Below, in pieces: positions 9,546 to 36,726 of a DNA stretch of 36,984 nucleotides; the first letter of the stretch is position 1, and each line of letters starts with the position of its first letter. Below the pieces are notes generated by a model. The model saw only the letters and a list, made by a program, of their open reading frames with translations, searched no databases and was not told the origin of the DNA. Source of the DNA: Burkholderiaceae bacterium (GTDB lineage Bacteria > Pseudomonadota > Gammaproteobacteria > Burkholderiales > Burkholderiaceae_C); the NCBI GenBank assembly GCA_025458585.1, contig JALOSD010000018.1, positions 1 to 36,984 on the forward strand, in the 5' to 3' direction. Made by a program: the position numbers and the translations under genes.

Positions 9546-10186
9546 TCACGCTGGCGCTCAGCAAGGGCCGCATCTTCGACGAGACGCTGCCGCTGCTCGA
9601 ACGCGCCGGCGTGCGCGTGCTCGAGGACCCGGAACGCTCGCGCAAGCTGATCCTGCCCACCAGCCGCGACGACCTGCGCGTCGTGCTCGTGCGCGCCTCC
9701 GACGTGCCGACCTACGTGCAGTACGGCGGCGCCGACCTCGGCGTGGCGGGCAAGGACGTGCTGCTCGAGCACGACGGCACCGGGCTGTACCAGCCGCTCG
9801 ACCTGAAGATCGCGCGCTGCCGCATGAGCGTGGCGGTGCGCGACGACTTCGACTACGCCGGTGCGGTCAGGCAGGGCTCGCGCATCCGCGTGGCGACCAA
9901 GTACACGCAGACGGCGCGCCAGCACTTCGCCGACAAGGGCGTGCACGTCGACCTGATCAAGCTCTACGGCTCGATGGAACTCGCGCCGCTGACGGGGCTG
10001 GCCGACGCGATCGTCGACCTGGTCTCGACCGGCAGCACGCTGAAGGCGAACCACCTCGTCGAGGTCGAGCGCATCATGGACATCTCGTCGCGCCTGATCG
10101 TCAACCAGGCCTCGCTCAAGCTCGAGCGCGAGCCGATGCGCGCGCTGATCGACGCCTTCGCCGCCGCCGTCGCGGAACAGCCATGA
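9542..10186 (+). CDS. hisG: ATP phosphoribosyltransferase, short form
   Basis: GTG start overlapping murA stop; [24 protein letters not shown]; 214 aa. Confidence 0.96.
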
Positions 10187-11523
10187 CCGTCGTCGTCCGT
10201 CGCCTGACCACCGCCGCGTTCGAGTTCGAGCAGGACTTCCAGCGCCTGCTGCACTGGTCCGACGAAGCGGACCATGCCATCGAGCAGCGTGTCGCGCAAA
10301 TCCTGGCCGACGTTCGCGCGCGCGGCGACGCCGCGGTGCTGGAGTACACGGCGCGCTTCGACGGGGTGCAGGCGCACTCGGTGGCTGAGCTCGAGATCCC
10401 GCAAGCCGAGCTGCAGGCGGCGCTCGCCTCGCTCGCGCCCGAGCGCCGTGCGGCGCTCGAGGCCGCGGCACGGCGAGTGCGCGATTACCACGAGCGCCAG
10501 CGCGACGCCTGCTGCCTCGGCTGGAGCTACCGCGACGCCGACGGCACACTGCTTGGGCAAAAGGTCACGCCGCTGGACCGCGTGGGCATCTACGTGCCCG
10601 GCGGCAAGGCGGCGTACCCGTCCAGCGTACTGATGAACGCGATTCCGGCGCAGGTGGCCGGGGTCGGCGAGATCGTGATGGTCGTGCCCACGCCGGCCCG
10701 AAGGGACGGCTCGTCCAAGGACTCGCGCGGCGAGAGGAACCCCCTCGTGCTCGCCGCCGCCGCGGTCGCCGGCGTGCACCGCGCGTTCACGATCGGCGGC
10801 GCGCAGGCGGTGGCCGCGCTCGCCTACGGCACGGCCACCGTGCCGCGTGTCGACAAGGTCACCGGCCCCGGCAACGCCTACGTCGCGAGCGCGAAGAAGC
10901 ACGTCTTCGGCCAGGTCGGCATCGACATGATCGCCGGCCCGAGCGAGATCCTCGTACTCGCCGACGGCACGACGCCGCCCGACTGGGTCGCGATGGACCT
11001 GTTCAGCCAGGCCGAGCACGACGAGCTCGCGCAGAGCATCCTGCTCAGCCCCGACGGGGCCTACATCGATCGCGTGCAGGAAGCGATCGAGCGGCTGCTG
11101 CCGACGATGCCGCGCGCCGACATCATCCGCGCGTCGCTCGAAGGCCGCGGCGCGCTGATCCACACGCGCTCGATGGACGAAGCGTGCGCCATCAGCAACC
11201 GCATCGCCCCCGAGCACCTCGAGGTGTCGAGCGCCGACCCGCACCGCTGGGAGCCGCTGCTCAAGCACGCCGGCGCGATCTTTCTCGGCGCGTTCACGAG
11301 CGAGAGCCTGGGCGACTACTGCGCCGGCCCGAACCACGTGCTGCCCACCAGCGGAACCGCGCGCTTCTCGTCGCCGCTGGGCGTGTATGACTTCGTCAAG
11401 CGCTCGAGCCTGATCGAGGTGAGCGACGCCGGTGCGAAGGCGCTCGGACCGATCGCCGGAGAACTCGCCGACGGTGAGGGTTTGGCGGCGCACGCCGAAG
11501 CTGCGCGGATGCGGCTGCGTTGA
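10183..11523 (+). CDS. hisD: histidinol dehydrogenase
   Basis: ATGA overlap with his[58 protein letters not shown]. Confidence 0.97.
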
Positions 11524-11568
11524 CACGAAGTTCGTGGAGCACGAGAATCGTGGCGCACGAAGTTCGTG
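11524..11568. promoter_or_regulatory. Triple palindromic operator-like array upstream of the antitoxin gene
   Basis: CACGAAGTTCGTG (11524-11536), CACGAGAATCGTG (11540-11552), CACGAAGTTCGTG (11556-11568); centres 11530, 11546, 11562 (16-bp pitch). Confidence 0.8.
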
Positions 11569-11578
11569 GGATGGCCCG

Positions 11579-11824
11579 ATGAAGAACGTCACCGTCACGA
11601 TGGAAGACAGCGTCGCCGAGTGGGCGCGGCTCGAGGCGGCACGCCGCAACACCAGCGTGTCGCGGCTGGTCGGCGAAATCCTGGCCGAGAAGATGCGGCA
11701 CGACGATGCCTACGAGCGCGCGATGCGCGAGTGGCTGGAGCGTGACCTGAGCTTCACGTCGGACGCACGCCCGTATCCCAAGCGCGACGAGATCTATGCC
11801 GAGCGGCTCGACCGTTTTCGTTGA
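11579..11824 (+). CDS. ribbon-helix-helix-type antitoxin (VapB-like)
   Basis: 81 aa MKNVTVTMEDSVAEWARLEAARRNTSVSRLVGEILAEKM, followed by an overlapping PIN-domain ORF. Confidence 0.82.
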   Translation: MKNVTVTMEDSVAEWARLEAARRNTSVSRLVGEILAEKMRHDDAYERAMREWLERDLSFTSDARPYPKRDEIYAERLDRFR

Positions 11825-12254
11825 CACCAACGTGCTGGTCTACGCCGAGGACCGCGCGCATGCCGACAAGCACCGCGCAGCCCGGCGGTGGCTGCGCGAG
11901 CTGTGGACGCGGCGGCAGGGCAGGCTCAGCACGCAGGTGCTCAACGAGTTCTACGTCACGGTGACGCGCAAGCTTGCGCCGGCGATGCCGCCGGGTGACG
12001 CCCGTGCCGAAGTGCGTCGCTTCCAGCGCTGGCAGCCCTGGCTCGTCGATCACGCCACCGTCGAGTCGGCGTGGGCCGTCGAGTCGCGCTTCGGCCTGCA
12101 CTTCTGGGATGCGCTGATGGTGGCATCGGCGCAGCAGCAGGGCTGCCGCTGGCTGCTGACCGAGGACCTGCAGCACGACCAGGTGTTTGATACGGTGCGT
12201 GTCGTCAACCCCTTCGCCGTCGGCCCCGAACTGCTCGACGCGCCCGCGCCATGA
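11796..12254 (+). CDS. PIN-domain ribonuclease toxin (VapC-like)
   Basis: [41 protein letters not shown] acidic motifs; overlaps antitoxin 5' and hisC start 3'. Confidence 0.9.
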
Positions 12255-13339
12255 CGCCCACGCTCGCCGAACGCATCGCGCGCACGATCCGCCAGGACGT
12301 GCAGTCGATGCATGCGTACGCCGTCCAGCCGAGCGCCGGGCTGGTCAAGCTCGACGCGATGGAGAACCCGTTCCGGCTGCCGGGCGAGCTGCAGCGCGAA
12401 CTCGGCGAGCGGCTCGCGCGCGTGGCGATCAACCGCTACCCGACGCAGTGCGTGGCCGACGTGATCGACGCCTTGTCGCGTTTCGTCGACCTGCCTGCAG
12501 GCTGCAAGCTGATGCTGGGCAACGGCTCGGACGAGCTGATCTCGCTGCTCGCGCTGGCCTGCGACGTGCCCGGCGCGACGATCCTCGCGCCGGTGCCCGG
12601 CTTCGTGATGTACGAGATGTCGGCGAGGCTGCAGGGGCTGCAGTTCGTCGGCGTGCCGCTGACGCCCGAGTTCGAGCTCGACGAGGCCGCGATGCTCGCC
12701 GCGATCGAGCGCCACCGCCCGGCGATCACCTACCTCGCGTACCCGAACAACCCGACCGCGAACCTGTGGGACGACGCCGTCATCGCCCGCATCGTCGACG
12801 CCGTGGGAGCGCAGCACGGGCTGGTGGTGTTCGACGAGGCCTATCAGCCGTTCGCGTCGCGCACCTGGATGCAGCGCATGGCGGCCCACGAGCACGTGCT
12901 CGTGATGCGCACGCTGTCCAAGTTCGGGCTCGCCGGTGTGCGCCTCGGCTACATGGCCGGTGCCCCGGCGCTCGTCGAGCAGATCGACAAGGTGCGCCCG
13001 CCGTACAACGTCAGCGTGCTCAACGCCGAGGCGACGCTGTTCGCGCTCGACCACGCCGACGAGTACGCGCGCCAGGCGGCGCTGCTGCGCGCCGAGCGCG
13101 AGCGGCTGCAGCGCGCGCTGTGCGACCTGCCGGGCGTGCACCCGTACCCGAGCGAGGCGAACATGATCCTCGCGCGCGTGGCCGACGCGGCGCGCACGTT
13201 CGCCGGCATGAAGCAGCGCGGCGTGCTGGTGAAGAACGTGTCGGCGCTGCACCCGCTGCTGGCGAACTGCCTGCGCCTGACGGTGGGCACGCCCGACGAG
13301 AACACGCTGATGCTCGACGCCCTGAAGGCCAGCCTATGA
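12251..13339 (+). CDS. hisC: histidinol-phosphate aminotransferase
   Basis: [32 protein letters not shown] overlap with toxin stop. Confidence 0.96.
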
Positions 13340-13932
13340 CGATGAACCGCATCGCCGAAGTCCGGCGCGACACCAAGGAGACGCAGATCCGCGTGCGCGT
13401 CGACCTCGACGGCACCGGCGCGTCGAAGCTCGCCACCGGCATCGGCTTCTTCGACCACATGCTCGACCAGGTCGCGCGCCACGGCCTGATCGACCTCGAG
13501 GTCGAGGCGCAGGGCGACCTGCACATCGACGGTCATCACACCGTCGAGGACGTGGGCATCACGCTCGGCATGGCGGTGGCGAAGGCCGTGGGCGACAAGA
13601 AGGGCCTGGTGCGCTACGGCCACGCCTACGTGCCGCTCGACGAGGCGCTGTCGCGCGTCGTGATCGACTTCTCCGGCCGCCCTGGGCTGCACCTGCACGT
13701 GCCGTTCACGAGCGGGATGGTCGGCGGCTTCGACACGCAGCTCACCTACGAGTTCTTCCAGGGCTTCGCGAACCATGCGCTCGTCACGCTGCACGTCGAC
13801 AACCTGAAGGGCGTCAACGCGCACCACCAGTGCGAGACCGTGTTCAAGGCCTTCGGCCGCGCGCTGCGCATGGCCGCGGCGATCGACCCGCGCGCCGCCG
13901 GCGTCGTGCCGTCGACGAAGGGCACGCTGTAG
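13336..13932 (+). CDS. hisB: imidazoleglycerol-phosphate dehydratase
   Basis: [44 protein letters not shown]. Confidence 0.97.
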
Positions 13933-13935
13933 ACC

Positions 13936-14583
13936 ATGACGAGGACGGTCGCCGTCGTCGACTACGGCATGGGCAACCTGCGCTCGGTGTCGCAGGCGGT
14001 CGCGCACGTCGCGCGCGACGCCGACGTCAAGGTCATCGTCACGTCGAACCCCGAGGAGGTCTACGCCGCCGAGCGTGTCGTGCTGCCGGGGCAGGGGGCG
14101 ATGCGCGACTGCATGCGAGAGCTGAACGACTCCGGCCTGAAGGACGCCGTGCTGCACGCCGCCGTGCACAAGCCGCTGATGGGCGTGTGCGTGGGCATGC
14201 AGATGCTGCTCGACCACAGCGAGGAGCAGGACACGCCCGGCCTCGGGCTGATCGGCGGGCGCGTCAGGCGCTTCCGCCTCGAAGGGCAGCGTCAACCCGA
14301 CGGCAGCCGCTACAAGGTGCCGCAGATGGGCTGGAACCGGGTGTTCCAGGCGCGGCCACACCCGCTGTGGACCGGGGTGCCCGATGGCGCTTGGTTCTAC
14401 TTCGTGCACAGCTACTTCGCGCAGCCGTCGGAGCCGCACCACACCGCGGGCGAGACCGAGTACGGCGTGCGCTTTACCTGTGCGGTGGCGCGGGATAACA
14501 TTTTTGCGACCCAGTTCCACCCCGAGAAGAGTGCCGCCCACGGCCTGGCGCTGTACCGCAACTTCCTGCACTGGAAGCCCTGA
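13936..14583 (+). CDS. hisH: imidazole glycerol phosphate synthase subunit HisH
   Basis: [34 protein letters not shown]. Confidence 0.97.
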
Positions 14584-14651: not shown

Positions 14652-15321
14652 ATGTTGCTGATCCCGGCCATCGACCTCAAAGACGGCAAGTGCGTGCGCC
14701 TGCAGCAAGGCGACATGAACGCCTCGACGACGTTCGGCGACGACCCGGCCGCGATGGCGCGCCGCTGGCTCGACGCCGGCGCGCGCCGTCTGCACTTGGT
14801 CGATCTCAACGGCGCGTTCGCCGGCAAGCCGGTCAACGAAAGCGCGATCAAGGCGATCCTGAAGGAAGTCGGCGACGAGATCCCGGTGCAGCTCGGCGGC
14901 GGCATCCGCGACCTCGACACGATCGAGCGCTACCTCGACGACGGCCTGAGCTACGTGATCATCGGCACCGCGGCGGTGAAGAACCCGGGCTTCCTGCGCG
15001 ACGCAGCTCACCGGCCACGAGGTGGTCGACCTGGCGAAGAAGTTCGAGGACTACGGCGTCGAGGCCGTGATCTACACCGACATCGGCCGTGACGGCATGC
15101 TCACCGGCATCAACATCGACGCCACCGTCAAGCTCGCGCGGGCGCTGACGATCCCCGTCATCGCGTCGGGCGGGCTGAGCGACATGGCCGACGTCGAGCG
15201 CCTGTGCGCCGTCGAGGACGAGGGCATCGACGGCGTCATCTGCGGGCGCAGCATCTACACGGGGGCGCTCGACTTCGCGGCGGCTCAGGCACGCGCCGAC
15301 GAGCTGAACGGCGCGCCATGA
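14652..15321 (+). pseudogene. hisA: HisA isomerase, disrupted by internal deletion plus frameshift
   Basis: Frame 1 [13 protein letters not shown]...[10 protein letters not shown], then from about 15008 the homologous reading continues in another frame ([31 protein letters not shown]...ELNGAP, stop 15319-15321); the intervening VGLDAKDG...DGWSK segment is absent. Confidence 0.88.
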
Positions 15322-15322
15322 C

Positions 15323-15400
15323 ACCCCCCCGAAGCGCCTTCGGCGCCTCCCCCCCAGGGAGGCTTCGCCGGCGGACCGGCGAAGCCGGATCCGCGGCGGC
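15323..15400 (+). repeat. Dispersed double stem-loop intergenic element, copy B (abuts the hisA stop)
   Basis: CCCCCCCGAAGCGCCTTCGGCGCCTCC...GCGGACCGGCGAAGCCGGATCCGC, matching the reverse complement of 216-286. Confidence 0.8.
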
Positions 15401-15454
15401 CGCTTGGACCATGCCTCGCGCGAGGGGCGGGCTCGGTATGGCCGGTTGCTGACG

Positions 15455-36601: not shown

Positions 36602-36691
36602 GATCTTCCTCGCAGTTGCGATCTTCCTCGCGGCTGCGATCTTCCTCGCGGCTGCGATCTTCCTCGCGGCTGCGATCTTCCTCGCGGTTGC
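36602..36691. repeat. 18-bp tandem repeat, 5 copies
   Basis: GATCTTCCTCGC(A/G)G(T/C)TGC x5 at 36602, 36620, 36638, 36656, 36674. Confidence 0.95.
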
Positions 36692-36726
36692 GGATTTGCC
36701 GCTTTCGCGATCGGTGACGTTCGACG

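Follow-up and report, generated by a model that had tools for sequence, protein, structure and literature searches.

The three 13-bp palindromes that lie between hisD and a small gene pair in the analysed window, a stretch of 36,984 nucleotides from a Burkholderiaceae bacterium, are in all likelihood the autoregulatory operator and promoter of this pair, which is of the VapBC type and combines a predicted ribbon-helix-helix (RHH) antitoxin with a PIN-domain toxin. This reading is based on the position of the array upstream of the antitoxin gene at every locus measured, on its overlap with a promoter and on its co-occurrence with the antitoxin among genomes of the host family. The pair and its operator are located immediately before hisC, and therefore histidine production may be under the same control.

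The region 11520-11581 reads TTGACACGAAGTTCGTGGAGCACGAGAATCGTGGCGCACGAAGTTCGTGGGATGGCCCGATG. The stop codon TGA of hisD occupies 11521-11523 and the array begins at the next base. Palindrome 1 (CACGAAGTTCGTG, 11524-11536, centre 11530), which is recognised by its sequence and conserved in relatives, is followed by palindrome 2 (CACGAGAATCGTG, 11540-11552, centre 11546) and palindrome 3 (CACGAAGTTCGTG, 11556-11568, centre 11562); none of them is assigned to a strand. All three fit the pattern CACGANNNTCGTG, their pitch is exactly 16 bp, and 10 bp separate the end of the array from the antitoxin ATG at 11579. The first-pass annotation of this DNA had described the same starting point, pitch, centres and gap, and its coordinates match exactly; identical outer copies and a middle copy with the same arms and an altered centre were likewise found as it had described them. 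From the base composition, chance would give 0.03 occurrences of a single CACGANNNTCGTG in the window and about 1e-12 triples with a 16-bp pitch in the genome. The pattern is found at 20 places in the 2.73-Mb assembly (84% complete), and none but these three are arranged as an array. An 18-bp tandem repeat with five copies (95% matches) is located elsewhere in the window, at 36602-36692.

The repeat scan returned the unit also as a 16-bp tandem repeat, as had been noted before, and this would suit a palindromic repeat that is dispersed in the genome, or a tandem repeat that arose by chance and has nothing to do with the pair. The probability of such an origin is negligible. The genome-wide motif search that the first-pass annotation had proposed yielded two copies of CACGAANTTCGTG, both at the outer positions of the array, and relatives have one array per genome, located at the pair. 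The uniqueness of CACGAANTTCGTG refutes the dispersed repeat for the assembled sequence, and the operator reading passes this search. The annotation had also suggested that slippage could change the number of sites. The number does vary, with two or three sites among relatives, and slippage may be the cause; the pitch stays at 16 bp in all of them.

The linkage between array and antitoxin was assessed in 401 genomes of the host family, drawn evenly. The antitoxin search and the palindrome search both covered these genomes and were taken as one set, as the genome labels agree. An antitoxin homologue is present in 122 of the 401 genomes. The double-site pattern, defined as two palindromes at pitch 16 with up to two mismatches, was detected in 113 of these 122 and in none of the 279 genomes without the antitoxin, and it thus tracks the antitoxin in the way that the operator reading of the first-pass annotation implies. 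Outside the family, 369 genomes of the class were searched with at most one mismatch; the single match obtained is itself a family member. The family matches and three loci from genome contigs, two of them duplicates, gave 115 non-redundant loci that were measured. All 115 carry a pitch-16 array upstream of the antitoxin gene, usually with two sites and sometimes with three, and in four of them (L040, L056, L061 and L077) the array lies further upstream. Neighbouring sites are exactly 16 bp apart in 137 of 147 cases, the others being stray weak matches, and the palindrome arms are conserved in sequence, beyond what pairing alone would require.

The array sits among the his genes of an operon, and in many bacteria such genes are subject to upstream control. 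It could hence be the binding site of a separate regulator of the his locus and not of the antitoxin. We regard this as very unlikely: twenty hisC loci from family genomes lacking the pair contain neither the site nor the toxin, the 279 genomes without the pair are devoid of any double site, and antitoxin homologues away from hisC possess related double sites with the same pitch. The latter were found among 23 loci with a related antitoxin, taken from other places in this genome or from beyond the family; in 12 of them CAC-N7-GTG occurs twice at pitch 16, often as CACGnnnnCAGTG-TTA-CACTGnnnnCGTG. No hisC match was present near these loci within the DNA read. The 16-bp pitch therefore appears to be older than the linkage to his genes. 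A second VapBC-like pair of the same genome (L028, on contig 327 of G000) has the composite double site CACGGGACCAGTG-TTA-CACTGATCCTGTG, with the pitch of 16 and other half-sites.

The putative promoter is interleaved with the array. Its -35 hexamer TTGACA (11520-11525, plus strand) contains the hisD stop and abuts site 1, and its -10 hexamer GAGAAT (11543-11548, plus strand) follows 17 bp later within palindrome 2. In a pattern scan of 11400-12300 this was the sole promoter-like match, with 10 of 12 positions matching; shuffled sequences gave a mean of 0.0. The overlap of operator and promoter that the first-pass annotation had expected is thus seen at both hexamers. A perfect TTGACA abutting site 1 together with a -10-like hexamer inside site 2 occurs in 18 of the 24 relatives with three sites, and the site-2 hexamer scores 4/6 in 15 of these 24 as opposed to only 2 of the 90 two-site arrays. 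The middle palindrome keeps its arms and not its centre because the centre is the -10 hexamer. The promoter scan and the three-site relatives lead us to reject a reading of the middle copy as a mere degenerate repeat, as its centre is constrained as a -10 element. Two loci, L032 and L033, retain TTGACA with no hisD found in front of either, which shows that this hexamer belongs to the module and not to hisD. Site 3 would surround the transcription start and extend just beyond it.

The position of the predicted start also bears on the possibility that the palindromes act in RNA, as leader hairpins or as a his attenuator. If they were transcribed, each of them could fold into a short hairpin. 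However, sites 1 and 2 are located upstream of the predicted start here, and both sites precede the -10-like hexamer in most relatives, so they would hardly be transcribed; furthermore, the arms keep their sequence and not only their pairing. A function in RNA is extremely unlikely.

Two sites are present at 90 loci and three at 24. At the two-site loci a -10 element resembling TAAACT or TTAAAT follows site 2, and the start codon usually comes 13-14 bp after this site. In most of these loci, for example in L067 and L081, about 6-12 nt separate the end of the -10-like hexamer from the start codon, and the antitoxin mRNA would therefore be leaderless or nearly so. On an approximate tree built with a quick method, the three-site TTGACA layout requires 9 changes, 3 of which are forced by well-supported branches.

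The antitoxin gene (11579-11824, plus strand) encodes a VapB-like, putative RHH protein of 81 amino acids related to DUF6364, a relation shared by 28 of 29 homologues. Helices are predicted at residues 10-22 and 27-54, and the strand is not formed in the monomer model. These helices overlay the RHH proteins CopG, Arc and CopASO over about 40 residues with an rmsd of about 1 A and E-values that are not significant. Many matches of the fold search are RHH proteins, with TM scores (target) of 0.8-0.9 over about 40 residues and E > 0.2; such values can be expected for a 40-residue domain. An antitoxin profile search found no solved structure by sequence.

The toxin gene (11796-12254, plus strand) starts within the 3′ end of the antitoxin gene and encodes a predicted VapC-like PIN-domain ribonuclease of 152 amino acids (Pfam PIN, E=9e-13). 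Its match to the NCBIfam family Mtu_PIN_fam (E=3e-9) is under the curated cut-off, and it is likewise below the NCBIfam cut-off for VapC. The AF2 model has a pLDDT of 96 and its fold matches VapC proteins and PcrIIC1. The best solved-structure match by both sequence and fold is PcrIIC1, a Cas9-associated protein (8wmm), which ranks ahead of the VapC proteins. Among 28 homologues, the first Asp of the PIN acidic residues is invariant, Asp105 is nearly so and the Glu of the NEF motif is mostly kept; some homologues, in a few lineages, are without one usual acidic residue. The pair thus shows features of VapBC systems, namely a PIN-domain toxin, conserved acidic active-site residues and a small, overlapping upstream antitoxin for which DNA binding is predicted. 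Both reading frames are intact at all 115 loci and dN/dS is 0-0.22 in 13 tested pairs of relatives; judged from these sequences, the pair is under purifying selection. In a plasmid search, all toxin matches were less than 60% identical.

The genes on both sides of the pair belong to histidine biosynthesis and are all on the plus strand. The gene hisD (10186-11523), whose stop is inside TTGACA, encodes histidinol dehydrogenase (Pfam Histidinol_dh, E=9e-164). The gene hisC (12251-13339) encodes histidinol-phosphate aminotransferase, as judged from Pfam Aminotran_1_2 and its position after hisD and before hisB. It is followed by hisB (13336-13932), the gene for imidazoleglycerol-phosphate dehydratase (Pfam IGPD, E=5e-62), and by the next gene in the operon, which encodes a hisH-like glutamine amidotransferase (13936-14583, Pfam GATase). 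The toxin gene ends and hisC begins within a shared ATGA, and hisC and hisB are joined by the same overlap of stop and ATG. The reading frame of hisA (14652-15403) opens at 14652, breaks near 15000 and resumes in a different frame, owing to an indel in the assembly or to a genuine defect.

Since the promoter shares sequence with the end of hisD, the toxin gene runs into the start of hisC and hisB is joined in the same manner, transcription of hisC would be expected to follow the state of the operator. However, hisC may have another source of transcripts in a his promoter further upstream and may be independent of the array promoter: no terminator was found between hisD and the array in the window, where hisD runs straight into the array, and read-through from upstream into hisC is therefore possible. 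A hisC promoter inside the toxin gene is possible as well. Terminator-like sequences lie within 160 bp in front of the array at seven loci. In L133 and L135 they are placed between hisD and the array, so that hisC and the genes after it would most obviously be transcribed from the array promoter. The orientation of upstream genes, taken from the longest open reading frame, is a rough measure in GC-rich DNA and was left out of the evidence.

The tie of the module to hisC, missed by the first-pass annotation, extends across the family. A HisC-type gene directly follows the toxin gene at all 115 non-redundant loci; the distance is -4, a 4-bp overlap of stop and start, in 63 of them and is mostly within 20 bp. 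Among the last eight loci, four have the same layout and array. L210-L212, with an antitoxin N-terminus 42% identical, have neither a hisC match nor an array. At L209 (1458-1700) a remnant lies between hisD and hisC, consisting of a short antitoxin-like reading frame and one decayed site with no toxin match, perhaps a loss in progress. Of the loci that lack the pair and include hisD in the DNA read, most have it close to hisC. In the genome G456, of the same genus, HisC is 93% identical and the hisD-hisC junction is short and without the module. The absence of the module from many relatives, G456 included, indicates that it is dispensable for the his genes. Between the window and L031 the toxins are 81% identical and the HisC proteins 65%, which together with the empty junction of G456 implies that gain or loss of the module has occurred repeatedly at this one address. 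The pair is, as far as these comparisons tell, a lineage-specific resident of the his locus.

These data also fit a view in which the array is the operator of the pair, but the site before hisC is a safe landing place without regulatory meaning, from which the module is hard to lose precisely and is spread by homologous recombination through hisD and hisC. We give this a little less than an even chance. The patchy presence of the pair (122 of 401 genomes), the horizontal gain or loss suggested by L031 and G456, the decayed remnant in L209 and a distance correlation of only 0.51 between pair and HisC, compared with 0.82 between toxin and antitoxin, all speak for it. Against it stand the strict placement, the 63 overlaps of 4 bp and the loci with a terminator-like sequence before the array, where hisC is put under the array promoter whether selected or not. 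In addition, the pair still adjoins a HisC-type gene at four loci (L055, L066, L107 and L128) where this gene is only about 30% identical to HisC of the window, as though hisC had been exchanged and the pair retained.

As the working of the operator we propose that one RHH antitoxin dimer would bind each 13-bp palindrome, and that the 16-bp pitch, close to one and a half turns of the helix, would favour cooperative binding of neighbouring toxin-bridged dimers. The bound dimers would cover the -35 element at site 1, the -10 element at site 2 and the start region at site 3, and this coverage would lead to autorepression depending on the toxin:antitoxin ratio. Repression or derepression at the operator would then change the transcription of hisC and the genes after it; such control is likely from the layout, but our high confidence concerns the operator reading. 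In a further-reaching scheme, the pair would have become a regulator of an amino-acid pathway: the ratio would set hisC and later his transcription through the three-site operator-promoter, and degradation of the antitoxin under stress would free the RNase and at the same time alter histidine synthesis. We put this last scheme forward tentatively, as plausible and somewhat short of probable.

Similar to FitAB and other VapBC systems with an RHH antitoxin, the pair combines an RHH-like antitoxin and a PIN toxin with promoter autoregulation, which is predicted here (PMC4803016); it differs in being distinct in sequence, fixed before hisC and encoded in overlapping reading frames. The YefM-YoeB operator has two palindromes, one of them over the -10 element, at 12 bp from centre to centre, a spacing needed for cooperative binding (PMC4803016), whereas the present array has a pitch of 16 bp, up to three near-equal sites and an RHH-like protein in place of the YefM fold. 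In Kis-Kid (parD), one palindrome lies over the -10 element and a second upstream, as is the case here, and a toxin-antitoxin octamer binds cooperatively (PMC4803016); the toxin family differs, and the sites here are adjacent at constant pitch. From Burkholderiales, VapBC of Acidovorax citrulli (Aave_0579-0580) is a working toxin-antitoxin pair; the part of that report drawn on here describes a strain-limited locus of likely horizontal origin that resembles Xanthomonas genes, and mentions no his linkage (PMC4701950). A relBE pair is located near his genes in an arrangement unlike the present one (PMC3948609), and a BrnT-like pair has been described (PMC10714953). The literature searched contained no description of a his operon with a VapBC or PIN gene. 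As far as these papers show, the kind of system is known and its wiring into the his locus is new.

On chromosomes, toxin-antitoxin pairs usually have a patchy distribution and no constant location, and their role in the cell is disputed. Here, in about a third of the sampled family genomes, such a pair occupies one address before hisC, with overlapping frames and a promoter of its own. About 115 natural operator variants with constant pitch and varying promoter register are useful for studies of cooperative RHH binding, and the pair in the his locus makes it possible to ask directly whether the operator of a toxin-antitoxin pair may serve as a metabolic switch.
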